In this document: piece by piece, positions 1,918 through 16,814 of the stretch
Numbering within the stretch: position 1 is the first letter of the stretch
Layout: the number at the start of each line of letters is the position of its first letter
Assembly: GCF_900143185.1 (NCBI RefSeq)
Contig: NZ_FSRQ01000001.1
Coordinates: 992,001 to 1,056,000 of the forward strand
From: Chryseobacterium scophthalmum
GTDB lineage: Bacteria > Bacteroidota > Bacteroidia > Flavobacteriales > Weeksellaceae
Length of the DNA: 64,000 nt
Reading direction: 5' to 3'
The notes under the pieces: model-generated
The model's database searches: none
Told to the model about the DNA's origin: nothing
The model's input: only the letters and a program-made list of their open reading frames with translations
Program-made: the position numbers and the translations under genes

Positions 1918-3048
1918 ATGAAATTTACGCTCAATACGGCAGAAAAAGACAACAGACCTATTTTCATCACCGGAAATTTTAATAAATGGAATCCGAAAGA
2001 TTACAATTTTCAACTTACAATTTTGGATGAAAACACCTACAGCATTGACATTGAAGACCAATTGCTCGGTGATGACATAGAATATAAATTCACAAAAGGC
2101 GGGTGGGAAAATGTAGAACTGGATCAATATGGAAACATTACGCCCAACAGAAAAGTCAAAAAAAAATCTGGAACAACCAATGATTTTGTAGAAAAATGGA
2201 GATTCAACTGGGGACCATTTAAAGATGAGTTCTTCCCTATTGTTGAGGTTATTTCTGAAGAATTTTACATTCCGCAGCTTGACCGTTACCGAAAAGTTTG
2301 GGCGCTTCTCCCCTACGATTATTATATTTCAGATAAAAAATATCCTGTTCTTTATCTTCAGGATGCTCAAAATTTATTCAATGAAGGCAGTGCATATGGA
2401 AACTGGGAAATCGACAAAAAGCTATCTATTCTTGCGGAATACGGTCGTGGAGATGTTATTGTAATCGCAGTAGAACACGGAAGCGAAGACCGAATTAAAG
2501 AATATATTTTTGATAATGATAACGTTGCCAACGGATCTGAAGGAAAAAAATACATCAGATTCGTTACAGACACTTTAAAACCTTTTATTGATGAACATTA
2601 TCGCACAAAAAAAGACCGCGAAAACACAGGGATCGGCGGAAGTTCTTTAGGAGCGCTCATTAGTTTGTACAGTGGGTTTCTTTATCCTGAAGTTTATTCT
2701 AAACTGCTTATTTTTTCACCTTCGCTTTGGATAGAACCTAATAATAACTTTCCGATGATGAGTTTCAGAGTTCCTTTTAAGACTAAAATCTATCTTTATG
2801 GAGGCGAACAGGAAGGAGCTAAAATGGTAAAAAGAATTCAGGTTTTTGAAAATTATTTAAAACGGTGGGAAAAGAAAAATCTTTTTGATTTTGAATTTAA
2901 AACCAATATCAATCCCGACGGAGAACACAGCGAATTTTATTGGTCACAGGAATTTCCTAGAGCGATTGAATGGCTTTTCTATAACAATACAGAAAATCCT
3001 GTTGAAGTAACACCACAACAGGAAAATATTAAAAATAAAACGATTTAA
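1918..3048 (+). CDS. Esterase with N-terminal glycogen-binding-like domain
   Basis: A 376-residue alpha/beta-hydrolase of the enterochelin esterase/esterase D family. Residues 1-85 form an E-set/CBM48-like module (TGNFNKWNPKDYNF, then a YKFTKGGWENVE strand region) of the kind that binds alpha-glucans or positions substrate. The hydrolase domain follows, with the nucleophile elbow GSSLG (Ser243) and a probable catalytic His near the C-terminus (DGEHSEF). There is no signal peptide, so it should be cytoplasmic. It is divergent from glgB and ends 2 nt before the M17 aminopeptidase gene, suggesting co-transcription. The substrate is unknown; despite the family name no siderophore genes are nearby. 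Confidence 0.8.
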   Translation: MKFTLNTAEKDNRPIFITGNFNKWNPKDYNFQLTILDENTYSIDIEDQLLGDDIEYKFTKGGWENVELDQYGNITPNRKVKKKSGTTNDFVEKWRFNWGPFKDEFFPIVEVISEEFYIPQLDRYRKVWALLPYDYYISDKKYPVLYLQDAQNLFNEGSAYGNWEIDKKLSILAEYGRGDVIVIAVEHGSEDRIKEYIFDNDNVANGSEGKKYIRFVTDTLKPFIDEHYRTKKDRENTGIGGSSLGALISLYSGFLYPEVYSKLLIFSPSLWIEPNNNFPMMSFRVPFKTKIYLYGGEQEGAKMVKRIQVFENYLKRWEKKNLFDFEFKTNINPDGEHSEFYWSQEFPRAIEWLFYNNTENPVEVTPQQENIKNKTI

Positions 3049-3050
3049 AA

Positions 3051-4466
3051 ATGCAATTATTCAACAAAAAAAATAAACAATACGCTCAGATTTTTCAATT
3101 ATTCACAGAAGAATCCTGGACTTTAAACTCTAAAAAATTCAACAAAAATATTGCCCTTCTTTTTTCAGGAAAAAAACATGAAGTCTTTATTGAAACCAAT
3201 GAAAAAACCATCACTTATTATATAGGTCTTGGAAAAGAAACTTTACAGAATTTTGAATTTCAGCAAATTGGAGTAAAATTCTCTCAGACTCAGAAAAAAA
3301 ATATACAAACCGTACCTACGTTATTAATTTCTGAATTCATCAATCAAAAACAATTTGAAGAGTTCACAAAAGGATTACTATTGGGAACTTACACTTACCC
3401 ATTTGATAAAACCCATCCTTTTTGGAATAAATCTTTCGAGCTTCATTTTGGGAATTTAAGCCAGAAAAAATTAGATACTATTTCTTCAAGAATAGATGCG
3501 ATCTGTGAAGGACAAGTAGCTTGTCAGGATTGGCTTAATAAACCTGCCAATTTAAAAAAGCCTGAGATTTTCAATACTTATCTAAAGAATTTAGCCAAGA
3601 AAAATCAGCTGAAATACACTGTTTTTAATAGAAAAAAGTGTGAAGAATTAGGTCTTGGAGCTTTCCTTTCTGTTAATCAGGGAAGTGCTTATGATGCAGC
3701 TTTTACTATTTTGGAATATAAAACAACGGAGAAAAATGCCAAAACTTTTGGACTTGTAGGAAAATGCGTTTTATTTGACACTGGAGGAATTTCCTTAAAA
3801 GCCTCAGACAATATGCACTACATGAAATCTGACATGGGAGGCGCAACCGCAGTGATTGGAGCGCTAATTTACGCATCGCAAATGAAACTTCCCGTTAACA
3901 TTACAGCAATTTTACCGATTACAGACAATGCAATTTCTGAAAATGCCTACTTACCAAGCGATGTCATCACGGCTTACAACGGAAAAACAATTGAAGTATT
4001 AAACACCGATGCAGAAGGCAGAATGACTCTTGCAGACGGCCTGTCTTACCTTTCAAAAAATTATAAAACCGATATTTTAATTGATCTTGCAACCCTTACA
4101 GGAAGTTCTGTAAGAATGTTTGGAGATACTTGTGGAGCGATGTTTTCTAACAATGAGGATTTGAAAAATCTTTTAATTAAAACCGGTGATAAGACTAATC
4201 AGAGATTATGGAATCTGCCATTATGGGATGTTTGGTTGGATGATTTTAAATCTGATGTTGCCGATTTTAAAAATATTTCAATGAAACCTCTCGGAGATTG
4301 TATTATTGCTGCAAAATTTCTGGAGCAATTCATCGGAAACCATCCCAACTGGGCACATCTCGACATTGCAGGAGTTGCATTTGGAAGTGTAGGATACGCA
4401 AAAGAAAAAGCAGCAACCGGCTTTGGAGTGCAATTACTGGCCGATTTAATCGAAAATTATCATTAA
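3051..4466 (+). CDS. M17 family leucyl aminopeptidase
   Basis: Cytoplasmic metallo-aminopeptidase of 471 aa, near the usual family length (about 480-500). The C-terminal catalytic domain carries the metal and active-site segments LFDTGGISLKA, MHYMKSDMGGA and the family signature NTDAEGRM (residues 318-325, where the usual last residue is Leu). The N-terminal 150 residues are poorly conserved, as is normal for M17. The gene begins 2 nt after the preceding esterase stop and precedes the amide-ligase genes by 140 nt. It could be general peptide turnover or a trimming enzyme for the cluster's product; the family call is firm and the pathway role is inferred. Confidence 0.92.
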   Translation: MQLFNKKNKQYAQIFQLFTEESWTLNSKKFNKNIALLFSGKKHEVFIETNEKTITYYIGLGKETLQNFEFQQIGVKFSQTQKKNIQTVPTLLISEFINQKQFEEFTKGLLLGTYTYPFDKTHPFWNKSFELHFGNLSQKKLDTISSRIDAICEGQVACQDWLNKPANLKKPEIFNTYLKNLAKKNQLKYTVFNRKKCEELGLGAFLSVNQGSAYDAAFTILEYKTTEKNAKTFGLVGKCVLFDTGGISLKASDNMHYMKSDMGGATAVIGALIYASQMKLPVNITAILPITDNAISENAYLPSDVITAYNGKTIEVLNTDAEGRMTLADGLSYLSKNYKTDILIDLATLTGSSVRMFGDTCGAMFSNNEDLKNLLIKTGDKTNQRLWNLPLWDVWLDDFKSDVADFKNISMKPLGDCIIAAKFLEQFIGNHPNWAHLDIAGVAFGSVGYAKEKAATGFGVQLLADLIENYH

Positions 4467-4606: not shown

Positions 4607-5818
4607 ATGAAGGAGAAAACCATCGTATGTATTTCGTGCTATTATAAAGGTTACGATTTTATGGACGAGATGAAAAAACTCGGTAATAAAATCATCCTCG
4701 TAACATCGGAAAATTTAAAAGACAAAAACTGGCCATGGCACGCTGTCGATGAAGTTTTCTATATGCCGGAGATAAAGCCTTCGGTCTGGAATCTCGATCA
4801 TCTTATTCAGGGATTTTCTCACTTGATGAAAACCAGGAAAGTAAATGCTGTAATCGCTTTGGATGATTATGATGTTGAAAAAGCTGCACTGATTCGTGAG
4901 ACATTCCGTATTCCCGGGATGGGACAGACAACGCACCGTTATTTCAGAGATAAACTGGCCATGCGTCAAAAAGCAAAAGATTCTGGAATCAACGTTCCTG
5001 AATTTACCGCTGTGTTTAATGATCAGGAAGTAAAAGATTTCACCGAAAAAGTTTCTCCGCCTTGGGTTTTAAAACCACGTTCAGAAGCTTCAGCATCAGG
5101 AATTAAAAAATTAAAAACTCAGGAAGAACTTTGGAATGCTTTGGAAAAACTGGGTGAAGAAAGACATTTATTTCTTCTCGAAAGTTTTAAACCGGGCGAT
5201 GTTTATCATGTAGACAGTTTAACATTCAATAAAGAAATTGTTTTTACTTCTGCTTCAAAATACCTAGCTCCACCGATGCAGGTTTCTCATGAAGGCGGGG
5301 TTTTCAGAACCAAAACTTTAGGAAGATATTCTGAAGAATTTAAAGCTTTGGAAGAAGCTAATGCTAAAGTTTTAAACAATTTTGGTTTATTGAATGGTGC
5401 TACTCACACAGAATTCATTCGTGGTAAAGAAGACAAAAAATGGTATTTCCTCGAAACTTCCTCAAGAGTTGGAGGCGCCCATATTCCAGATTTGGTAGAA
5501 GCTTCGAGCAACATTAATATCTGGCGTGAATGGGCGAAAATTGAAGATGCACTATTAAGAGGAAATCATTACGAAGTTTCAAAACCGACTGGATATTATT
5601 CGGGATTGATTGTTGCGCTGATTAAAGATTTAGCTCCCAATTATAAAGATTTTGAATGTGAAGAAGTCGTGAAATTTCTTCCAATCGACTATCATGTAGG
5701 AATTGTTTATAAATCGAAAGATTCTGATATTGTTCAGGACAGACTTGATTCTGCAGCTGAAAAGATTCATGCGGAGATGCTGAATGTACTTCCCCCGAAA
5801 GATAAACCGAGTTCTTAA
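4607..5818 (+). CDS. ATP-grasp carboxylate-amine ligase (first of three)
   Basis: A 403-aa ATP-grasp enzyme of the carbamoyl-phosphate synthetase large-chain/PurK-like type. A Rossmann-like N-terminal domain (residues 1-105, VCISCYYKGYDF) precedes the ATP-grasp fold, with the nucleotide-binding lysine region PPWVLKPRSEASASG (about residue 150) and the metal-binding strand WYFLETSSRVGG (about residue 283). Such enzymes join a carboxylate, activated as acyl phosphate, to an amine. It opens a same-strand run of genes (small unknown, esterase, second ATP-grasp, GCS2, amidotransferase). The next gene starts 5 nt downstream. The exact substrate cannot be read from sequence. Confidence 0.88.
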   Translation: MKEKTIVCISCYYKGYDFMDEMKKLGNKIILVTSENLKDKNWPWHAVDEVFYMPEIKPSVWNLDHLIQGFSHLMKTRKVNAVIALDDYDVEKAALIRETFRIPGMGQTTHRYFRDKLAMRQKAKDSGINVPEFTAVFNDQEVKDFTEKVSPPWVLKPRSEASASGIKKLKTQEELWNALEKLGEERHLFLLESFKPGDVYHVDSLTFNKEIVFTSASKYLAPPMQVSHEGGVFRTKTLGRYSEEFKALEEANAKVLNNFGLLNGATHTEFIRGKEDKKWYFLETSSRVGGAHIPDLVEASSNINIWREWAKIEDALLRGNHYEVSKPTGYYSGLIVALIKDLAPNYKDFECEEVVKFLPIDYHVGIVYKSKDSDIVQDRLDSAAEKIHAEMLNVLPPKDKPSS

Positions 5819-5823
5819 TTTTA

Positions 5824-6102
5824 ATGAATAGAAAAATTGACATTCAAGAAATTATAGATTTTATAACATTTAATTTACCAAAAGAATCTAATTTAAAAAC
5901 TAATTTAAACACCATCAAATTTGGAAAATGGGAAAGTAAAGCATATTACAAATTTGTTGATTCTACAGGTGCAAATAAACCTGGATCAAAATGGCAGTTT
6001 AAAGAAAATATTATTTTAGAACATCCAAAATATAAAACAATTGTTCTGGATATTCTTCAAGATGATCAACTGGGTGGAATTGAATTCATTAAGTTCATAT
6101 AA
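5824..6102 (+). CDS. Small uncharacterised protein in the amide-ligase run
   Basis: A 92-residue protein that I do not recognise. It is charged, with no signal peptide or membrane segment. The middle region (FGKWESKAYYKFVDS) and the C-terminal segment (LDILQDDQLGGIEFIKFI) look like an alpha/beta fold and recall small immunity-like or DUF proteins. It starts 5 nt after the first ATP-grasp gene and ends 33 nt before the esterase, so it is probably in the same transcript. It may be a carrier or accessory protein, but no phosphopantetheine motif (DSL) is visible. Confidence 0.6.
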   Translation: MNRKIDIQEIIDFITFNLPKESNLKTNLNTIKFGKWESKAYYKFVDSTGANKPGSKWQFKENIILEHPKYKTIVLDILQDDQLGGIEFIKFI

Positions 6103-6135
6103 TATTAACACAAATAAAAGCTCAAACAATAAAAT

Positions 6136-6846
6136 ATGCCACATATAGAACATACAGATTATTATTCTAATATCTTAGGAACAAGCCTTAAAGTGGAAGT
6201 TACGGGACATTACGGTTATCCGATTATTATGTTTCCGACTTCACAGGGTTTATATACTCAAAATCATGATTTTCACCTGAACAGTAGCATCAATTATTTT
6301 ATTGAACAGGGAAAAGTAAAATTATACAACGTTCAAACCATTGATGCATGGACTTTTTATGACGAAAAAATTTCGCCGCAACAAAGAATAAAAAATTACG
6401 AAAAATATGTCCAGTTTCTGATTCAGGAATTTGTTCCTTATATCCAAAAACTTCATCAGATCCATCGTGTTGCGATTGCAGGAGCGAGTTTCGGAGGTTA
6501 TCATGCAGCTAATTTTGCATTCAGATTTCCTGATGTGATTTCGCATTTATTCTGTCTTTCGGGAGCATTCAGCATTCGAAATTTCATGGATGGATATGAT
6601 GGTGAACTCGTTTATTTTAACTGTCCAAGAGAATTTGTAAAAAACGATGAAGCGTGGAAATATAAGCATATGCACATTGTTTTAAGCACTTCTGATGAAG
6701 ATATATGCAAAGATAAAAATGTGGAAATGGCAGGGATTTTAGCCTCAAAAGGAATTGATTTCTGGTATGACGAAAAAAAATGGATCAATCACGACTGGCC
6801 ACTTTGGAGAATGACTTTTCCAACGTACATCGGGGCATTTTTTTAA
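6136..6846 (+). CDS. Alpha/beta-hydrolase, enterochelin esterase-like
   Basis: A 236-residue cytoplasmic hydrolase. The nucleophile elbow GASFGG places Ser118, and a conserved C-terminal His219 in INHDWPLW completes the likely triad. It belongs to the esterase family (esterase D/antigen 85-type core) without added domains. It lies between two ATP-grasp genes in one orientation (33 nt upstream gap, 47 nt downstream). A role in releasing or activating an amide or ester intermediate of the cluster product is plausible but not shown. Confidence 0.82.
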   Translation: MPHIEHTDYYSNILGTSLKVEVTGHYGYPIIMFPTSQGLYTQNHDFHLNSSINYFIEQGKVKLYNVQTIDAWTFYDEKISPQQRIKNYEKYVQFLIQEFVPYIQKLHQIHRVAIAGASFGGYHAANFAFRFPDVISHLFCLSGAFSIRNFMDGYDGELVYFNCPREFVKNDEAWKYKHMHIVLSTSDEDICKDKNVEMAGILASKGIDFWYDEKKWINHDWPLWRMTFPTYIGAFF

Positions 6847-6893
6847 ATTAAAACAACTCAAATATTAATATTAAATCATTAAAAAAACAAATT

Positions 6894-7847
6894 ATGGCAA
6901 AAAAAGTAGGAATTTTATTCGGGATGGAAGATACATTTCCGTGGGCATTTATTGATAAAGTAAACGAACTTGGAGGTGGAGAAGTAATCGCTGAAGCTGT
7001 GAATATAGATAAACTGGAGCAAGGTGCAGATTATGGTTATGCCGTGATTATCGACAGAATTTCTCAGGATGTTCCTTTCTACAGAGCTTATCTTAAAAAT
7101 GCAGCTTTAAACGGAACCTATGTAATCAATAATCCTTTTTGGTGGAGTGCTGATGAAAAATTCTTCAACAATGCTTTAATGACGAAACTTGGAATTCCTT
7201 TACCTAAAACCGTTTTACTTCCTTCACACGAAAGACCTACAGATACCTCAGAAACTTCATTCAGAAACCTAAAGTTTCCACATGATTGGGAATATATTTT
7301 TGATTACGTAGGATTTCCGGCTTATATGAAACCTCATGATGGTGGTGGCTGGAAAAGCGTATACAGAGTAGAAAACCCGCAGGATCTTTGGGATAAACTG
7401 AGCGAAACAGAACAATTAGTAATGATGGTGCAGGAAGAAATTGTTTTCCAGGATTATTACAGAGTATATTGTTTAGGACAAAAATACGTTCACATTATGC
7501 CGTATGAGCCAAGAAATGCACCTCACTTGAGATATGAAACTACTCATCAAACAGAAGGTGAAGATTTGAAAAAATTATTGAAAACAATTCATGATTATAC
7601 CATTAAAATGAATCAGGCTTTAGGATATGATTTCAACACCGTAGAATTTGCGGTAAGAGACGGAATTCCTTATGCAATTGATTTCTGTAACCCAGCTCCG
7701 GATGCAGACAAAAACTCTGTAGGAGAAGAAAATTTTGCATGGATTGTAGAACATTCTGCAAAATTAGCCATTGAAAAAGCTAAAGAATATGTTCCCGGAA
7801 AACCTAATATTTCGTGGGGAACTTTTGTAAAAGACTCTGTAAAATAA
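6894..7847 (+). CDS. ATP-grasp ligase (second of three), RimK-like
   Basis: A 317-residue ATP-grasp protein. The N-terminal segment (KVGILFGMEDTFPW) is a pre-ATP-grasp Rossmann-type domain. The central part has a nucleotide-binding lysine with glycine-rich loop (AYMKPHDGGGWKSV, about residue 145). The C-terminal metal-binding strand is VEFAVRDGIPYAIDFCNPAPDAD. The spacing and length are like RimK/glutathione-synthetase-type ligases that add an amino acid to a carboxylate. Its 3' end is 27 nt before the GCS2 gene, and the pair are often translationally close in this type of cluster. The substrate is unknown. Confidence 0.88.
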   Translation: MAKKVGILFGMEDTFPWAFIDKVNELGGGEVIAEAVNIDKLEQGADYGYAVIIDRISQDVPFYRAYLKNAALNGTYVINNPFWWSADEKFFNNALMTKLGIPLPKTVLLPSHERPTDTSETSFRNLKFPHDWEYIFDYVGFPAYMKPHDGGGWKSVYRVENPQDLWDKLSETEQLVMMVQEEIVFQDYYRVYCLGQKYVHIMPYEPRNAPHLRYETTHQTEGEDLKKLLKTIHDYTIKMNQALGYDFNTVEFAVRDGIPYAIDFCNPAPDADKNSVGEENFAWIVEHSAKLAIEKAKEYVPGKPNISWGTFVKDSVK

Positions 7848-7874
7848 AAACCTAAAAAAAACACTGAAAAAAAA

Positions 7875-8993
7875 ATGCATCAATTTACAATAGGAATCGA
7901 AGAAGAATATCAGATTATCGATGTTGAAAGCCGCGATTTAATTTCTCATGTTTCAAAAATTATTGAAGGCGGAAAAGCTGTTTTAAGCGAAAATTTAAAA
8001 CATGAAATGCACGAATCAATGATTGAAATGGAAACCGGAATTTGCCAGAATATTCAGGAAGCTCAGGCTGAACTCACCAATCTTAGAAGACATTTGATCA
8101 ATACAGCTCATGAACAGGGACTTCGTGTTTCCGGCGGTGGAACTCATCCTTTTTCAAACTGGGAACACAACACGATTACAAATGGTGAACGTTACAACAA
8201 AATTGTAGACGATATGGGCGATGTTGCCCGTGGAAATCTTATTTTTGGATTACACGTTCATATTGGAATTCCTAACCGTGAAGAAGGCGTGAGAATACAG
8301 AATGTAATGCGTTATTTCCTTCCACATGTTTATGCACTTTCCGTAAACTCTCCTTTTTGGATTGGAAGAAGCACGGGCTTTAAATCTTACAGACAGGAAA
8401 TTTTCGTCAAATTTCCAAGAACCGGAATTCCAAGTTACTTTAATTCGTTGGCAGAGTTTGACAGTTATGTTGATCTTTTGGTGAAAACCGGAACGATTGA
8501 CAATGCTAAGAAAATCTGGTGGGATCTGCGTGTTCATCCATTTTATCCGACCATTGAGTTCAGAATTTGTGATATGCCTCTAAGAATTGAAGAAACGGTT
8601 TGTTTGGCTGCAATCATGCAGAGTTTAGTGGCTAAAATTTACAAGCTTCACCAGCAGAATTTAAGCTTCAGAAGCTACAGAAGATTATTGCTTAACGAAA
8701 ATAAATGGCGTGCTTCCAGAGATGGAGTTCATTCTAAACTGATTGATTTTGGTAAAGAAGAATCGGTACCTTATCCTGATCTTTTAAAAGAACTTTTAGA
8801 GTTTATTGATGATGTTGTAGATGATTTAGGATGCAGAAAAGAAGTAGAATATGCCTGGAAAATTTTGGAAAACGGAACCGGTGCAGACCGACAATTAGCC
8901 GTCTATAAAGAAACAGGCGACTTAAAGAAAGTCGTTGATTATATGATATCTGAGACAGAGTACGGCATCACGCATAACCAAACTGCTTTATAA
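7875..8993 (+). CDS. GCS2-family carboxylate-amine ligase (YbdK type)
   Basis: A 372-residue protein of the glutamate-cysteine ligase type 2 family (the YbdK/COG2170 group). The N-terminus has the family hallmark TIGIEEEYQI (acidic metal ligands). The conserved VSGGGTHPFSNWE, LHVHIGIPN and TIEFRICDMP segments follow. Members form gamma-glutamyl-type amide bonds using ATP in the glutamine-synthetase fold. No gshB-like partner with glutathione context is present; the neighbours are ATP-grasp proteins and a glutamine amidotransferase, so a dedicated small-molecule pathway is more likely than glutathione. Confidence 0.92.
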   Translation: MHQFTIGIEEEYQIIDVESRDLISHVSKIIEGGKAVLSENLKHEMHESMIEMETGICQNIQEAQAELTNLRRHLINTAHEQGLRVSGGGTHPFSNWEHNTITNGERYNKIVDDMGDVARGNLIFGLHVHIGIPNREEGVRIQNVMRYFLPHVYALSVNSPFWIGRSTGFKSYRQEIFVKFPRTGIPSYFNSLAEFDSYVDLLVKTGTIDNAKKIWWDLRVHPFYPTIEFRICDMPLRIEETVCLAAIMQSLVAKIYKLHQQNLSFRSYRRLLLNENKWRASRDGVHSKLIDFGKEESVPYPDLLKELLEFIDDVVDDLGCRKEVEYAWKILENGTGADRQLAVYKETGDLKKVVDYMISETEYGITHNQTAL

Positions 8994-9001
8994 TAATTTC
9001 A

Positions 9002-9009
9002 TAACTTTG
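9002..9009 (+). promoter_or_regulatory. Candidate internal -7 element (TAACTTTG)
   Basis: TAACTTTG matches TAnnTTTG and lies 16 nt before the ATG at 9026, just after the GCS2 stop codon. No TTG was found at the expected distance upstream. If active it would give a very short leader of about 10 nt for the amidotransferase gene. Confidence 0.35.
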
Positions 9010-9025
9010 CAGAAATTATGTGGTT

Positions 9026-9859
9026 ATGAAAGATGTAAGAATTGCTTTGCTGGATATGAACAACAATCAGGCGAATCAGGGATTTAAAAATATAAAAGAA
9101 ATCTCTGAGAATTTCCAGAAGCAATCGGAAGAAAATATAAGTATTACAGGTTTTGATGTAAGACATAAAAATGAAATTCCAGACATTGAAGATTTTGATA
9201 TATTCATTTCTTCAGGTGGACCGGGAAATCCTCACCGTGAAGGCTTTGAATGGGAGCAGAAATTTGCAGATTTTTTAGATTCAGTTTATGAATATAACAA
9301 ACATAATGATACAAAAAAATATCTTTTTCTGATTTGTCATTCTTTCCAATTGGCAAGTATTCATTGGGATTTAGGAAATATCTGTAAAAGAAAATCTTAT
9401 TCTTTTGGAGTGCAGCCAATTCATAAAACGGAAGAAGGTGAAGCTGAATTTTTATTCAAAAACCTACCCGATCCTTTTTATGCTGTAGATTCCAGAGCAT
9501 ATCAGTTTATTGAGCCTAATGTAGAGCGTTTTGAAGAATTAGATATGAAAATGGTGGCGATTGAAAAATCTCGTCCTCATATCGATTTGGAGCGGGCAAT
9601 TATGGCAGTTCGTTTTTCTGATGAAATTTTCGGAACACAGTTTCATCCTGAAGCTAATCCTGACGGAATGATTGAAAATCTGAAAGACGAGAAAAATAAA
9701 GAAGCTATGATTGAAAATTACGGTATGGAAAAATATCTGGAAACCGTAGACAGAATTAATGACGAAGACAAAATCGTTCTTACACAATCTCAGATTCTAC
9801 CTCGTTTTTTAAGCGATGCTAAGAAAAATATTTTGAAACAAAATACGGCAACAGCCTGA
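9026..9859 (+). CDS. Class I glutamine amidotransferase-like protein
   Basis: A 277-residue class I (triad) glutamine amidotransferase domain. It shows the oxyanion region SSGGPGNP, the nucleophile Cys104 in LICHSFQLA and the His/Glu pair in TQFHPEANP, so the triad is intact. It would hydrolyse glutamine and pass ammonia to a partner synthetase, or act as a gamma-glutamyl hydrolase. I chose ATG 9026 (MKDVRIALLDMNN); an in-frame GTG at 9020 is the alternative. It follows the GCS2 gene by 32 nt and is followed by a strong hairpin terminator at 9886, which would end the main transcript. Confidence 0.87.
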   Translation: MKDVRIALLDMNNNQANQGFKNIKEISENFQKQSEENISITGFDVRHKNEIPDIEDFDIFISSGGPGNPHREGFEWEQKFADFLDSVYEYNKHNDTKKYLFLICHSFQLASIHWDLGNICKRKSYSFGVQPIHKTEEGEAEFLFKNLPDPFYAVDSRAYQFIEPNVERFEELDMKMVAIEKSRPHIDLERAIMAVRFSDEIFGTQFHPEANPDGMIENLKDEKNKEAMIENYGMEKYLETVDRINDEDKIVLTQSQILPRFLSDAKKNILKQNTATA

Positions 9860-9885
9860 TAAAAAATTCAAATAAAAACAATTAA

Positions 9886-9911
9886 AATCGAGCATTATTG
9901 CTCGATTTTTT
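9886..9911 (+). terminator. Rho-independent terminator after the amidotransferase gene
   Basis: AATCGAGCA (9886-9894), a TTAT loop, and TGCTCGATT (9899-9907), then a T run. The stem has 9 perfect pairs. Confidence 0.85.
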
Positions 9912-9932
9912 AAATCACAAAAGAAAAAAATT

Positions 9933-11117
9933 ATGATCCAAAAATACAGAAAACAGTTTAACGAAGAATTCACCAGCGAAAAATACGATCAGATAAAATC
10001 GATATTAGAAGAAAAAAGCGGCATACAACCTACCTTCAGATTGTCTGAAAGTCCTATTTTTTTAACTCATGAATTCAAAGAAAAATTAGTTTCGGCAAGT
10101 GAAAGTATTATTGATCAGATTAAAAACTTCCCCGAAGGAACTTTAGAAAACTCGATTCCTGAAAACTGTAAAGTTCCCAACGATACCAAACAACCTCATT
10201 TTTTCACCATAGATTTTGGGATTTGCAGAAGCGAAAACGGTAAAATAGAACCTCAACTGATAGAATTGCAAGCGTTTCCTTCGCTGTATGCATTTCAGAA
10301 TGTTTATGAAGATACTTTTTGTGAGGTTTATCCATTCTTAAATCAATTAAAAAATAATATTTCGGATGAACATTATCAGAAACATTTATATGAATTGATT
10401 GTTGGTAAAGAAAATCCTGAAAACGTTGTTTTGCTTGAAATTTATCCTGAAAAACAGAAAACGGCTATTGATTTTGCTTTAACCGAAAAACTTTTAGGAA
10501 TAAAAACTGTTTGTCTAACTAAAGTAAAAAAGCAGGGAAATCACTTATTTTATGAGCGCAATGGTGAACTGATCAGAATCAAAAGAATTTATAACCGCGT
10601 CATTTTTGATGAGCTTGATAAAATTCCTGATCTTAAAACTGAGTTTAATTTCCGTGAAGATGTAGATGTAGAATGGATTACTCATCCGAATTGGTTTTTT
10701 AAAATTTCTAAATATCTTCTGCCTTTGCTAAAACACGAGTTTGTTCCGAAAAGCTATTTTCTGCACGAGTTTCCTGAAAATGAAAGCCTTGAAAATTTTG
10801 TTTTAAAACCTTTGTTTTCTTTTGCAGGTAGCGGTGTAAATCTAAATCCCACAAAAGAGATTACTGATGCTATTTTAGATAAAAAAAATTATATCTTGCA
10901 GCGAAAAGTAAACTACGAACCAGTTTTTGAAGATATCAACGGAGATTTCTCAAGAGCCGAAATTCGTTTACTTTATATCTGGAAAGAAAATGAAGAAAGA
11001 CCAATTTTACTTCAAAACCTTTCAAGAATGACAAAAGCTGCAATGGTAAATGTAGATTTTAACAAAAAAGATGCAATCTGGATTGGCAGTTCTCATGCGT
11101 TTTTTGGGGAAGAATAA
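9933..11117 (+). CDS. ATP-grasp-like protein (third of the region)
   Basis: A 394-residue protein with an ATP-grasp-like C-terminal half. The segment NFVLKPLFSFAGSGVNL (about residues 290-306) looks like the nucleotide-binding lysine plus glycine loop, and SRAEIRLLYIW may supply metal-binding acidic residues near 350. The N-terminal 200 residues are unlike the other two ligases and contain a TIDFGICRSENG / PQLIELQAFPS stretch typical of some glutathionylspermidine-synthase-like or uncharacterised ATP-grasp proteins. A terminator separates it from the amidotransferase gene, so it may have its own promoter or rely on read-through. Function unknown. Confidence 0.72.
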   Translation: MIQKYRKQFNEEFTSEKYDQIKSILEEKSGIQPTFRLSESPIFLTHEFKEKLVSASESIIDQIKNFPEGTLENSIPENCKVPNDTKQPHFFTIDFGICRSENGKIEPQLIELQAFPSLYAFQNVYEDTFCEVYPFLNQLKNNISDEHYQKHLYELIVGKENPENVVLLEIYPEKQKTAIDFALTEKLLGIKTVCLTKVKKQGNHLFYERNGELIRIKRIYNRVIFDELDKIPDLKTEFNFREDVDVEWITHPNWFFKISKYLLPLLKHEFVPKSYFLHEFPENESLENFVLKPLFSFAGSGVNLNPTKEITDAILDKKNYILQRKVNYEPVFEDINGDFSRAEIRLLYIWKENEERPILLQNLSRMTKAAMVNVDFNKKDAIWIGSSHAFFGEE

Positions 11118-12142: not shown

Positions 12143-14770
12143 TTAAAATTTATCGTCTTCAAGCAATTCCCTCGCCTGATAATCCTGTACAAGGTCAATC
12201 GCATTAGAAATTACATCACTTAGAGCTGTAATAAAAGTTCCTTCTTCTGCCATTCCCATTGCGTGTTTCAGCGCATCAATTTCTTTAGGAATCGTTTCGT
12301 AGCTAACATCTCTTCCCGAAGATTGCATTCCGTCAATAATCAAACCGTTGATTTCTTCTTCTGTTCTTCCTCGAAGATGTTTTTCGTTTCTGATGATAAT
12401 ATGATCAAACATTCTTCCGGCAATTTTTCCGCACAGTCTGATGTCTTCATCTCTTCTATCTCCCACACCGGAAATAATTCCGATTTTCTTGGTAGATTCT
12501 ACATTTTTAAGATAATCTTCAATCGCTTCATAGCCTGCAGGATTGTGTGCAAAATCTATTAAAACTTTAAAGTTTTTAAATTTAAATACATTCAGTCTTC
12601 CCGGAGTCAACTGTGCACTTGGAATAAATGTACGAAGTGAATTTGAAATATCCTCAATTCCAAAACCATAAAGATAACAAGCCAAACTAGCCGCCAAAAC
12701 ATTATCTATCATGAATTTTGCCTTTCCTTCCATTGTAATCGGGAAATCTTTTACTTTTCCGATTCTTATTTTCCAATCCCCTTTTTTAATGGTTACATAG
12801 CCTTCTTCATAAACACAGGTTGTGCGCCCTTCTTTAGCGAATTTTTTGATGTATTCATTATTTTCATCCAAACTGAAAATAGCGACATTACTCGGTAAAT
12901 CGTTGATGATTCTCATTGAATATTCATCTTCAGCATTCAAAACGCTCCATCCGCTTTTCTTTACACTGTCGAGTACTACCCTTTTTACTTTGGTTAAATC
13001 TTTCAGGTTGTGAATATCATTCATTCCTAAATGATCTTCTTTAATATTGGTTAAAACTCCGATATCACACTGTCCGAAACCTAAACCGGAACGAAGAATT
13101 CCACCTCTTGCCGTTTCCAAAACTGCAAATTCTACAGTTGGATCTTTTAGAATAAATTCGGCTGAAATAGGACCTGTTGTATCACCTTTCGTCAACATTG
13201 TATTCTGAATATAAATTCCGTCTGATGTGGTAAAGCCTACTCTATAACCGTTACTTTTTACGATATGTGAAATTAATCTCGTCGTGGTTGTTTTTCCATT
13301 AGTTCCTGTAACTGCAATAATAGGAATAGTAAAAGGTTTTCCTTGCGGATACAACATATCTACAACCGGAGCTGCAACGTTTCTCGGAAGACCTTCACTC
13401 GGAGCCAAGTGCATTCTGAAACCAGGAGCTGCATTCACTTCAATAATCGCTCCACCGCTTTCTTTCAAAGGCTGGGTAAGGTTTTCTGCCATAATATCAA
13501 TTCCGCAGACATCTAAACCGATGATTTTTGAAATTCTTTCAGCCATTGTGATATTTTCTGGATGCACCATATCGGTAACATCAATCGAAGTACCACCTGT
13601 AGAAAGATTAGCTGTAGACTTTAAATAAACTATTTCTCCTTTTTGAGGAACAGTTTCTAAAGTATATTGAAGTTTTTCAAGTAATTCTAAAGTGTCTTTA
13701 TCGACTGTGATTTCCGTCAGAACATTTTCATGACCATATCCTCTTCTTGGATCCTGATTTTCTTTTTCAATTAATTGCTCAAGATTAGATTCACCGTCAC
13801 CAACAACATGAGCTGGAACTCTTCTCGCTGCAGCAACCATTTTATTATTGATTACCAAAACTCTGAAATCGTATCCCGTAATATATTTTTCAACAATTAC
13901 TTTTTTTGAATATTTCTGAGCGTATTCTAAACCCGTCACAGAAGAAACCCAATCGTTAACATTGATTGAAGAACCTTTTCCGTGATTTCCATCTAAAGGT
14001 TTGATAACGATAGGATAACCAATTTTTTTGATGACGCTTTGTAGTTCTTCCTCATCCACAATTAAATCTCCCATCGGAACAGGAATTGCAGCATCATGAA
14101 GCATTCTTTTCGTCAGCTCTTTATTGCATGCAATATCTACAGCAATCGAGCTTGTGTTTCCGGTAATTGTCGCCTGAAATCTTTGTTGATTAACACCATA
14201 ACCTAACTGAACCAGAGAATTGCTTCCCAATCTTATCCACGGAATTTTTCTTGAAACTGCTTCCTCAACAATACTTCCTGTAGAAGGTCCCAATCTTACA
14301 CGCTCTCTGATTTCTTTTAACTTTTGAATACAAGCGTTAATATCGTATTCTTTATTTTCAATTAAAGCTAAAGCAATTTCTACCGCCTGTTCGGCTGCAT
14401 AGATTCCTGCATTTTCTTCGATATAATCAAACACGACGTTGTAAACTCCGGGAGATTTTGTCTCGCGTGTTCTTCCAAATCCTGTTTCCATACCCGCTAA
14501 AGTCTGAATTTCTAAAGCGATATGCTCAATGACATGCCCCATCCAGGTACCGGTTTCTATTCTATGAAAAAAACCTCCTCTCGTTCCTTCTGAACAACGG
14601 TGACTAATGAGCGAAGGTATAAGATGTTCTATTCTTTCACGAAAACCTTCGATTTTATTTGTAGGAAAATCTTCCATTTCCTCCAGATCCAAACGCATCT
14701 GTATCAGCTTCTTTCTTCTTATACTCCAAATATTTGGACCACGCAAAGCCTGTATCTTCTTAATTTTCAT
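12143..14770 (-). CDS. cphA: Cyanophycin synthetase
   Basis: An 875-residue cytoplasmic enzyme that polymerises a multi-L-arginyl-poly-L-aspartate reserve. Three parts are visible: an N-terminal domain (1-200), an ATP-grasp domain (about 210-480, with YPIVIKPLDGNHGKGSSI) that adds Asp, and a Mur-ligase domain (about 485-870) with the P-loop VTGTNGKTTTT near residue 487 that adds Arg. FAHNPAGYEAIEDYL and GRTEEEINGLI are typical of the C-terminal Mur-ligase lobe. The length fits the cyanobacterial type (about 870-900 aa). It is divergent from cyanophycinase and isoaspartyl peptidase, which makes the assignment firm. Confidence 0.94.
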   Translation of the reverse strand: MKIKKIQALRGPNIWSIRRKKLIQMRLDLEEMEDFPTNKIEGFRERIEHLIPSLISHRCSEGTRGGFFHRIETGTWMGHVIEHIALEIQTLAGMETGFGRTRETKSPGVYNVVFDYIEENAGIYAAEQAVEIALALIENKEYDINACIQKLKEIRERVRLGPSTGSIVEEAVSRKIPWIRLGSNSLVQLGYGVNQQRFQATITGNTSSIAVDIACNKELTKRMLHDAAIPVPMGDLIVDEEELQSVIKKIGYPIVIKPLDGNHGKGSSINVNDWVSSVTGLEYAQKYSKKVIVEKYITGYDFRVLVINNKMVAAARRVPAHVVGDGESNLEQLIEKENQDPRRGYGHENVLTEITVDKDTLELLEKLQYTLETVPQKGEIVYLKSTANLSTGGTSIDVTDMVHPENITMAERISKIIGLDVCGIDIMAENLTQPLKESGGAIIEVNAAPGFRMHLAPSEGLPRNVAAPVVDMLYPQGKPFTIPIIAVTGTNGKTTTTRLISHIVKSNGYRVGFTTSDGIYIQNTMLTKGDTTGPISAEFILKDPTVEFAVLETARGGILRSGLGFGQCDIGVLTNIKEDHLGMNDIHNLKDLTKVKRVVLDSVKKSGWSVLNAEDEYSMRIINDLPSNVAIFSLDENNEYIKKFAKEGRTTCVYEEGYVTIKKGDWKIRIGKVKDFPITMEGKAKFMIDNVLAASLACYLYGFGIEDISNSLRTFIPSAQLTPGRLNVFKFKNFKVLIDFAHNPAGYEAIEDYLKNVESTKKIGIISGVGDRRDEDIRLCGKIAGRMFDHIIIRNEKHLRGRTEEEINGLIIDGMQSSGRDVSYETIPKEIDALKHAMGMAEEGTFITALSDVISNAIDLVQDYQARELLEDDKF

Positions 14771-14815
14771 ACTTTAGTTATACCTTATTATATTAATAAA
14801 AACATCTTTCTAAAT

Positions 14816-14823
14816 CAAAGATA
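14816..14823 (-). promoter_or_regulatory. Candidate cphA -7 element (TATCTTTG)
   Basis: On the minus strand TATCTTTG matches TAnnTTTG and lies about 45 nt before the cphA ATG. A TTTG occurs 15 nt upstream, closer than the usual 19-21 nt, so the -33 assignment is weak. Confidence 0.4.
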
Positions 14824-14954
14824 ATGTAAAACATGAAACAAAACCATAGCGTTATTAAAGATTTATTAAAAAAATACAATTTCTGTAATCAATTAGAAAT
14901 CAAACTAAATACGTTAAAAATCGGTTTACATTTCATTAACAATTTATTATTTTT

Positions 14955-14962
14955 TAAATTTG
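14955..14962 (+). promoter_or_regulatory. Candidate cphB -7 element (TAAATTTG)
   Basis: TAAATTTG matches TAnnTTTG and ends only 6 nt before the ATG at 14969. Transcription normally starts about 7 nt after this element, which would put the start at or next to the ATG and make the message leaderless. No -33 TTG was found. Confidence 0.4.
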
Positions 14963-14968
14963 CAAGCT

Positions 14969-15853
14969 ATGAAACCTGTTGGAAAATTAATTATTATCGG
15001 TGGGGCTGTTAATAAAGGCAGTTTTTCTGAGACCGATTACGATCAGAATGTTGAAAAAAATCTTAACTTTTTTGAGAGAGGAATCTTAAGAAAAATCATT
15101 ACTGAATCTAAGAATAAAGAAAACTCAATTATCGAAGTCATTACTACGGCTTCGCAAATTCCTCAAATAGTAGGTGCTGAATATAAAAAAGCTTTTGAAT
15201 TTTTGGGAGCCAAAAATGTCAACATTCTTGATATTCACAACCGTGAAGAAGCCAATTCGGATGCTATTGTTGCAAGAGCAAATGCAGCTGATGTTGTAAT
15301 GTTTACGGGTGGTGATCAGTTAAGACTGACTTCTATTTTGGGCGGTACAAGATTTCATGACACTATTTTGCTGAAATATATGGAGCAGGATTTTATCTAC
15401 TCCGGAACTTCTGCAGGAGCTGCTGCTGCTTCTGAAAATATGATTTATCAAGGAAGCAGTTCTGAGGCTTTGTTGAAAGGTGAAATTAAAACAACTCAAG
15501 GTTTAGGTTTAATCGATAATGTAATTGTAGATACGCATTTCGTACAAAGAGGAAGAATTGGAAGACTTTTCCAAGCTGTGGTAAACAATCCTAGAACTTT
15601 AGGAATCGGTTTAGGTGAAGACACCGGACTTTTTATACATAATGATACCATGACCGCTGTAGGATCTGGTTTAGTAATTATTGTTGATGGAAGATTCATT
15701 AAAGACACTAATCTTACCAATATCAATTTAGGTGAGCCAATTTCAATAGATAATCTTACCGTTCACGTGATGTCGATGAACGATCATTATGATTTGACGA
15801 CAAGAAAACTGACGATAGAAAACTCACAGTTTAATCCGATACCTCAAACGTAA
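14969..15853 (+). CDS. cphB: Cyanophycinase
   Basis: A 294-residue S51-family serine peptidase that cuts cyanophycin to beta-Asp-Arg dipeptides. The nucleophile lies in GTSAGAAAA (Ser about 149). The family segments VVMFTGGDQLRL, DTHFVQRGRIGRL and LGIGLGEDTGLF are all present. The start is ATG 14969 (MKPVGKLIIIGG); an in-frame TTG nine bases upstream is less likely. No signal peptide is visible, so it should act on intracellular cyanophycin. Its divergence from cphA and its position before the isoaspartyl peptidase gene give a complete synthesis and breakdown locus. Confidence 0.93.
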   Translation: MKPVGKLIIIGGAVNKGSFSETDYDQNVEKNLNFFERGILRKIITESKNKENSIIEVITTASQIPQIVGAEYKKAFEFLGAKNVNILDIHNREEANSDAIVARANAADVVMFTGGDQLRLTSILGGTRFHDTILLKYMEQDFIYSGTSAGAAAASENMIYQGSSSEALLKGEIKTTQGLGLIDNVIVDTHFVQRGRIGRLFQAVVNNPRTLGIGLGEDTGLFIHNDTMTAVGSGLVIIVDGRFIKDTNLTNINLGEPISIDNLTVHVMSMNDHYDLTTRKLTIENSQFNPIPQT

Positions 15854-15858
15854 AATAA

Positions 15859-15962
15859 TCATTGATAATCGATAAATAATAAATGATTTTGATTTGTAAT
15901 TTCAAATCAAATTATTTAAAATCGAAGGTTTAATATCAATTATCATCTATCAATCATCAACT
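15859..15962. repeat. Intergenic inverted-repeat cluster between cphB and iaaA
   Basis: The gap carries GATAATCGATAAATAATAAATGA-like sequence near 15863-15885 and its approximate reverse complement at 15930-15962. A perfect 9-bp hairpin, TTTGATTTG (15888-15896) and CAAATCAAA (15903-15911), lies between them. The same GATAATTGATGATTGATAAATAAT-type sequence recurs before hisS at 24738-24771. It may form a weak terminator or an RNA stem between the two genes. Confidence 0.5.
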
Positions 15963-15971
15963 ATAATTTTT

Positions 15972-16814
15972 ATGAAAATCATTATCCACGGAGGTTTTTT
16001 TTCTGAAAGTGACCAGAGCCACGAAGTGAAAGTAGCCAAACAAAATTCTTTAAAAAACATCGCTGAAAAGGCATATCAATATTTAGAAATCCATTCTGCA
16101 GTTGATACTGTTGCTTACGCGGTTTCTCTTTTGGAAGATGATGAATTGTTTAATGCAGGAATCGGATCTCAAATTCAAAGCGACGGCGTTATCAGAATGA
16201 GTGCAGCACTAATGGATGGTGAAACTCAGAAAATGAGCGGTGTTATCAATATTCAGGATGTGAAAAATCCGATTTTTGTAGCAAAAGAATTAATGAAAGA
16301 AGATGACCGGGTTTTAGGTGGAAACGGAGCTAAAATTTATGCTAACAATAACGGATTTGAAAATTTCTCAACAGAAATTCCTCAAAGAAGAAAAGAATAC
16401 GAAGCAAAGCTAAAAAATGGAGGAAAAGGAACTGTTGGTTGTGTTGCGATCGATAAAAACGGAAAATTAGCTGTTGCTACTTCTACCGGAGGTAAAGGTT
16501 TTGAGATTCCGGGAAGAATTTCAGATTCTGCAACGGTAGCTGGAAATTACGCCAATGAATTTTGCGCAGTAAGCTGCACCGGAGTGGGTGAAGATATTGT
16601 AAGCAATGCTACTTCTGCCAAAATTGTAACCAGAGTGACAGATGGAATGAGTTTAAAAGATGCTTTTGACAAAACTTTTACTGAGCTAAAAACAATCGAT
16701 GGCTTTGCAGGAGCTATTGCGATTGATAAAAACGGAAACATTTACCATCAAGAATCTTACCCTACAATGGTTTTTGCAAGTTTTGATGGAAATCAATTTG
16801 AAATCTTTAAATAA
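15972..16814 (+). CDS. iaaA: Isoaspartyl peptidase / plant-type L-asparaginase
   Basis: A 280-residue Ntn-hydrolase precursor that self-cleaves before a conserved Thr (Thr154 in GKGTVGCVAIDKNG) to give alpha and beta subunits. The following ATSTGGKG and GRISDSATVAGNYAN segments are family hallmarks. In this context it would split the beta-Asp-Arg dipeptide released by cyanophycinase into aspartate and arginine. No signal peptide, so cytoplasmic. It follows cphB on the same strand after 118 nt of inverted-repeat DNA. General isoaspartyl-dipeptide clearance is a second possible role. Confidence 0.9.
   Translation: MKIIIHGGFFSESDQSHEVKVAKQNSLKNIAEKAYQYLEIHSAVDTVAYAVSLLEDDELFNAGIGSQIQSDGVIRMSAALMDGETQKMSGVINIQDVKNPIFVAKELMKEDDRVLGGNGAKIYANNNGFENFSTEIPQRRKEYEAKLKNGGKGTVGCVAIDKNGKLAVATSTGGKGFEIPGRISDSATVAGNYANEFCAVSCTGVGEDIVSNATSAKIVTRVTDGMSLKDAFDKTFTELKTIDGFAGAIAIDKNGNIYHQESYPTMVFASFDGNQFEIFK

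Follow-up and report, generated by a model that had tools for sequence, protein, structure and literature searches.

A run of plus-strand genes in Chryseobacterium scophthalmum has, in our judgement, about an even chance of encoding a chromosomal pathway, independent of nonribosomal peptide synthetases (NRPS), for making and recycling a small gamma-glutamyl peptide along glutathione-like lines. The genes lie in a window of 64,000 nucleotides (contig NZ_FSRQ01000001.1, positions 992,001 to 1,056,000; coordinates below count from its first letter) of a 4.47 Mb genome, numbered G000 in our set, and fall into two modules that form a single run in the Chryseobacterium group. Module A, the core, consists of the stand-alone PF00756 esterase Est236 (6136–6846), the RimK-like ATP-grasp ligase AG2 (6894–7847; 97% identical in C. 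formosus), the YbdK-type carboxylate-amine ligase GCS2 (7875–8993), the stand-alone class I glutamine-amidotransferase-like protein GAT (9020–9859, GTG start) and AG3 (9933–11117), a predicted circularly permuted ATP-grasp ligase. Module B comprises the alpha/beta-hydrolase esterase EstA (1918–3048), the zinc aminopeptidase M17 (3051–4466) and the ATP-grasp ligase AG1 (4607–5818). EstA and M17 are separated by 2 bp and M17 and AG1 by 140 bp, all on the same strand, while the gaps from AG1 through AG3, in order, are 5, 33, 47, 27, 26 and 73 bp. The first-pass annotation had described seven plus-strand open reading frames (ORFs) from AG1 to AG3, all of which are present; its boundary has to be redrawn, since it left out EstA and M17, with which the same run begins upstream at 1918, and took in U92, a 92-residue ORF (5824–6102, plus strand) that matches no Pfam or NCBIfam family. 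Because U92 is AT-rich (24.4% G+C versus 33% for the window) and L077 is the only one among 120 relatives' loci to contain it, this ORF probably lies outside the system.

The evidence for a functional unit comes largely from conservation across Bacteroidota. Among 120 relatives' loci, a set leaning to close relatives, the order and strand Est236-AG2-GCS2-GAT-AG3 are identical in 69 of the 69 that hold all five genes, which bears out the conserved gene order that the first-pass annotation had proposed to look for. The ORFs of these loci come from a greedy script that takes the longest ORF (at least 60 residues), with tblastn used in GC-rich loci where the script fails (L155, L158), and the 80 named loci are the best 80 of 583 relatives, biased to the Chryseobacterium group. 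An even sample of 148 Bacteroidota genomes gave AG2 in 60, GCS2 in 52, AG3 in 49, GAT in 40 and AG1 in 34, as called by single-sequence search at E-value limits of 1e-3 (AG2, AG3), 1e-30 (AG1) and 1e-20 (GCS2, GAT), which may miss distant versions. AG2 is present in 40/40 GAT-positive and 34/34 AG1-positive genomes, and AG3-positive genomes carry GCS2 in 47 and AG2 in 48 of 49 cases. Among the 50 genomes with both AG2 and GCS2, 32, spanning 12 families, have the two genes on one strand and less than 5 kb from each other; they are 5–30 kb apart in another five, and further apart or on other contigs in 13. The conserved gene order is far beyond chance. Even in groups f22 and f26, whose genes are scattered, 11 of 12 genomes contain all of AG2, GCS2 and AG3, a pattern that points to a common function and not to a common location. 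Distance correlations among the core genes (0.82–0.92) lack a control for species history, so they are not counted as evidence. There are counter-examples: G144 has AG3 and GCS2 without AG2, G004 has GCS2 alone, G096 keeps AG2 and GAT but none of the other three genes, and G007 and G087 have just a divergent AG2 (32–36%).

We then examined the proteins of the core; except for the GhExE motif below, the roles of the active-site positions checked in GAT, AG2, AG3, M17 and the esterases are presumed. In the Est236 family, Ser118 and His219 are each kept in 85 of 88 members and Asp189 in at least 97%. AG2, the most conserved member of the system, scores below the cut-off of the RimK-type model TIGR00768 (37.1 versus 143.4 bits) and by sequence is only a distant RimK relative, not RimK proper, while its residues K146, E251, D263 and N266 are identical in 117/117 relatives. 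Five AG2 orthologues (L034, L036, L037, L042 and L045) carry long Lys/Ala/Pro-rich C-terminal tails, histone H1-like by eye, a tail that is missing from the AG2 of the window. GCS2 is the only PF04107 protein of the genome and exceeds the cut-offs of both NF010039 (535.8 versus 371 bits) and PF04107 (218.6 versus 21), in keeping with its earlier identification as YbdK-type; its PDB matches are 1tt4 and 1r8g. The GhExE ATP/Mg motif (G7, E9, E11), as defined in PMC2588565, is kept in 100 of 100 members. The earlier family calls likewise hold for GAT and AG1, which pass their cut-offs, and for AG3, which is of ATP-grasp type by predicted structure.

AG3 was assigned by its predicted structure because it matches no Pfam or NCBIfam family. 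Its full-length predicted fold is that of the glutathione synthetase/GspS/YgiC superfamily, grouping with eukaryotic glutathione synthetase, GspS and YgiC, and its top Foldseek match is 3n6x (2.2e-14), a circularly permuted type 2 ATP-grasp protein (PF14403); a sequence search of the PDB returned YgiC as the single, weak match (E 0.022). The positions D94, E111, Q113, K292, E343 and R345 are kept in 95/95 relatives, and the family is large, with 7,999 of 8,000 scored candidates matching after clustering at 90% identity. Two known systems resemble this part of the cluster. Glutathione biosynthesis combines a gamma-Glu-Cys ligase with a eukaryotic-type synthetase, but AG3 is only about 9–17% identical to those enzymes, and here two more ligases, GAT, an aminopeptidase and esterases are added, while the genome lacks GshA and GshF and has BshC. 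The peptide-spermidine ligases YgiC/YjfC and GspS, the former described as peptidylpolyamine synthetases in PMC12568646, differ in that AG3 has no amidase domain and is accompanied by GCS2 and other ligases.

GAT matches PF00117 (35.4 bits versus a cut-off of 22.8), and its triad C106/H209/E211, which the first-pass annotation had called intact, is so in 87 of 87 relatives. By predicted fold GAT groups, among others, with gamma-glutamyl peptidase 1 (GGP1) of Arabidopsis, likewise a stand-alone class I glutamine-amidotransferase-like protein, which PDB titles and a literature listing describe as a gamma-glutamyl peptidase. The nucleophile loop of GAT reads L-I-C-H-S-F-Q. Between GAT and AG3 lies a hairpin of 11 pairs (9884–9909, no strand), a possible terminator or attenuator, that parts the two genes here, whereas they overlap in 30 of 84 relatives' loci; overall, promoter and terminator scans found no more candidates than in shuffled sequence.

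Module B adds a further ligase with hydrolases. AG1 passes the PF13535 cut-off (29.5 versus 27 bits), and its nearest solved relatives are L-amino acid ligases (PDB 4wd3, E=2e-17; 3vot, 5.5e-8; 30vh, 4e-7), while the cut-off of the BacD equivalog NF053745 is not reached (22.3 of 850 bits). M17 matches PF00883 with 353.5 bits, and the seven metal and catalytic positions checked are identical in 30/30 members. Since it adjoins AG1 in 4 of the 20 AG1 regions fetched (L184, L185, L190, L191) and also in L171, M17 is a recurring, not a universal, partner. EstA matches PF00756 (85.5 bits), with Ser243 conserved in at least 97% of its family and His337 in 72/72; it adjoins M17-AG1 in five loci (L133, L151, L184, L190, L191), and Pfam confirms PF00756 esterases adjoining AG1 in two further loci, L179 and L180, where these EstA homologues carry an N-terminal AMPK1_CBM domain that is unmatched in EstA of the window. 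The module is placed differently in some relatives: in Polaribacter (L133) and Flavobacterium (L151), EstA-M17-AG1 forms a separate block on the opposite side of the core and facing it, and in the Saprospiraceae loci L132 and L136, AG1 comes after AG3 and is itself followed by M17 on the opposite strand.

The genome as a whole lacks the standard glutathione genes. It has no GshA, GshF or dedicated GshB: PF04262 (GshA) finds no match in the genome, the single PF02955 (GshB) match over the cut-off (27.4 versus 23) is located inside the cyanophycin synthetase CphA, and TIGR01435 (GshF) stays below its cut-off with 144.3 of 656 bits, again inside CphA, and an 18-bit trace elsewhere. NRPS condensation domains (PF00668) are absent genome-wide, in line with the claim already made from the window. 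On these genome searches both glutathione biosynthesis proper and an NRPS pathway were rejected as the system at hand. No purine-pathway or carbamoyl-phosphate model exceeds its cut-off, so neither role was retained for GAT and the ATP-grasp proteins. With the order conserved, no purine model, no NRPS and no GshA, GshF or dedicated GshB, the natural reading of the genes is a small metabolite of amide-linked or gamma-glutamyl type. This part of the first-pass interpretation, together with its non-NRPS origin and conserved order, stands; its boundary does not, nor does the claim that no gene of glutathione-cycle type is present, given the predicted glutathione synthetase/GspS/YgiC fold of AG3 and the fold group of GAT that includes GGP1. 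Judged by these predicted folds, the logic looks glutathione-like despite the missing standard glutathione genes. BshC is present in this genome and in 147 of the 148 Bacteroidota; bacillithiol therefore does not track the cluster and was rejected as its explanation. Because bacillithiol genes are present, a bulk redox thiol is not needed as the product, and we do not assume one.

Taken together, the families suggest the following scheme. GCS2 would phosphorylate the gamma-carboxylate of glutamate or a similar compound and couple it to a unit X that bears an amine. AG3 would then activate the C-terminal carboxylate of the gamma-glutamyl product and add a further amine, either an amino acid or, as with YgiC and GspS, a polyamine. 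The RimK-like AG2 and the L-amino acid ligase-like AG1 may each add one more residue. For recycling, GAT would strip gamma-glutamyl groups in the manner of GGP1, M17, or in some genomes an M29 enzyme, would trim residues from the N terminus, and both PF00756 hydrolases would cleave an ester or activated-acyl form. What the data establish is the gene content, the conserved order and co-occurrence, the conservation of active-site positions, the predicted folds of AG3 and GAT, and the lack of standard glutathione genes and NRPS; the identity of each reaction, their order, the substrates and the product are all read from family membership in this scheme.

A variant of the cluster was found among the genomes that have AG2 without AG3 (n = 12, of which all but G104 were fetched). 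Nine of these 11 carry a circularly permuted ATP-grasp ligase between AG2 and GAT, and the remaining two, G007 and G087, have no such ligase. In the six loci where an ORF was called, the variant ligase has 451–474 residues; of three proteins tested against PF14403, those of L152 and L153 exceed the cut-off and that of L156 stays under it. Its only PDB sequence match is 3n6x (E 2.6e-8), whereas a direct profile comparison with AG3 is weak (probability 3.6%, E 0.012). As 3n6x is a relative common to both, by sequence for the variant ligase and by predicted fold for AG3, one circularly permuted glutathione synthetase-type ligase seems to replace the other. An extra PF00756-type esterase follows GAT in seven of the nine variant genomes. 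A second possible exchange concerns the peptidases: in the GAT-less G055 and G093, an M29-type aminopeptidase (by Pfam in L161, by 62% identity in L052) stands between GCS2 and AG3. The place of GAT may therefore be that of a peptidase; M29 could as well replace M17, which was not found beside AG1 in these two genomes.

Several observations weigh against the proposed gamma-glutamyl peptide pathway. The clusters of the nine variant genomes lack both GCS2 and AG3, although G022, G112 and G123 hold GCS2 elsewhere, which means that not every cluster has the gamma-glutamyl step. GAT is absent from 19 of 49 AG3-positive genomes, AG1 from 26 of 60 AG2-positive genomes and GCS2 from two of 49 AG3-positive genomes (G037, G064), and as few as 4 of the 20 fetched AG1 regions have M17 adjoining. 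The predicted folds of AG3 and GAT do not reveal a substrate. GAT differs from GGP1 in that its genome is without the standard glutathione genes and that it also ties in the fold comparison with the glutamine amidotransferase DnfC, the uncharacterised TM1158 and homoserine succinyltransferases. Bacillithiol genes already fill the thiol role, and the relatives' loci have no constant neighbouring transporter, regulator or carrier.

Of the other explanations, the main rival is that GAT is a true glutaminase feeding ammonia to AG3 or its replacement, which would make the product a peptide with an amidated C terminus, much like glutathione amide or N-acetylglutaminylglutamine amide (NAGGN). The tight coupling of GAT and AG3, with overlapping genes in 30 of 84 loci, favours this idea; we nevertheless consider it unlikely, since so many AG3-positive genomes (19/49) do without GAT, the loop L-I-C-H-S-F-Q departs from the G-x-C-x-G that is typical of glutamine amidotransferases, and an M29 aminopeptidase takes the GAT slot in G055 and G093. 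About half as probable is a role in protein or peptide tagging, in which the ligases would attach glutamyl or other residues and the peptidases take them off. The RimK-like AG2, the pairing of ligases with peptidases and the long Lys/Ala-rich tails on several AG2 orthologues are in line with tagging, but no small acceptor ORF (at least 60 residues) recurs, the protein families F19, F20 and F22 being found in 11, 10 and 7 of 120 loci, and the glutathione synthetase/GspS fold acts on small peptides.

Amine assimilation is slightly less probable again: on the PuuA-PuuD logic, GCS2 would gamma-glutamylate an amine, oxidation would follow, and GAT would free glutamate. This would fit a gamma-glutamyl ligase found together with a possible gamma-glutamyl hydrolase, and 12 loci from Dyadobacter and related Cytophagales have an ArgD-like class III aminotransferase downstream of AG3 (L106, L107, L110, L111, L112, L114, L116, L118, L120, L122, L124 and L125, the L118 protein being below cut-offs). 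However, only ligases, GAT, esterases and M17 recur in a large fraction of the loci, with no oxidase or dehydrogenase in that group, and three further ligases would be left over. Ordinary glutathione or homoglutathione, made by GCS2 and AG3 as displaced enzymes, ranks just behind; both folds make glutathione in other organisms, and GshA and GshF are absent. Yet this proposal would leave two additional ligases idle, BshC is near-universal (147/148), and Polaribacter MED152, which may or may not carry the cluster, contains N-methyl-bacillithiol and bacillithiol (BSH) according to PMC6282198. Least probable of all, and very improbable in our view, is that the cluster belongs to cyanophycin metabolism. 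Directly downstream (12143–16814) lie CphA (1263 bits versus a cut-off of 850), a cyanophycinase (227.5 versus 126.6) and a beta-aspartyl-peptidase-like gene whose protein is below cut-off, but CphA occurs in 14 of the 120 loci, all from close relatives (12 named ones, from Chryseobacterium with one Halpernia, and two further genomes of the same genus), and was not found in the fetched flanks, some of them short, of the other 106.

Two more candidates were rejected. No AG2 or AG3 match was found in 72,556 plasmid records, which speaks against a plasmid-borne cluster. An anti-phage defence role received no support from PADLOC, in a comparison that covered the seven proteins first reported and left out EstA and M17: none of the six other than U92 matched, and U92 gave a weak 15.9-bit match to PDC-S06. 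Additionally, some relatives' loci have neighbours of their own. In six f22 loci (L062, L063, L065, L066, L069, L164), AG2 is separated from AG3 and has a gene for an aromatic amino acid lyase nearby (protein family F5, assigned by Pfam for L066 only, with L164 identified separately), and a metallophosphoesterase is common to the first five as well. In four f14 loci (L049, L054, L055, L058), pyruvate:ferredoxin oxidoreductase and a dihydroorotate-dehydrogenase-like gene precede the core, assigned by Pfam in L054 and by family in the rest; in L055 a sodium:alanine symporter follows AG3. In L097 (Chryseobacterium sp. E1), Est236, GAT and AG3 each have two neighbouring matches, which suggests breaks or partial duplication.

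The 2009 amidoligase survey of Iyer and colleagues may have noted parts of the cluster. The predicted amidoligase neighbourhoods of Iyer and Aravind likewise place GCS2-superfamily ligases beside GAT-like peptidases, but the accessible part of PMC2588565 describes other families and names no Bacteroidota cluster of such make-up. Our literature search, which covered titles and the beginnings of abstracts with subscription journals mostly outside its reach, returned no description of the cluster, its phylum-wide conservation or its variant. Each family by itself is either known or an unnamed relative of a known fold; as far as we found, what is new is the combination of families, its conservation across the phylum and the variant.

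More broadly, and with clearly less confidence than for the pathway itself, we tentatively propose that about 40% of the sampled Bacteroidota (60/148 by AG2) may run a second small-peptide economy beside bacillithiol, centred on a gamma-glutamyl peptide, possibly polyamine-capped, that would be made by GCS2 and a glutathione synthetase-fold ligase unrelated to GshA/GshB, served by its own gamma-glutamyl peptidase, aminopeptidase and esterases and, in a second lineage, rebuilt around a circularly permuted ATP-grasp ligase. If this is true, a phylum with near-universal BshC would also make a glutathione-like peptide, none of which has been isolated as far as we found. It would also give a first role to AG3, a nameless ligase family of thousands of proteins, and a role to a stand-alone GAT family as well.

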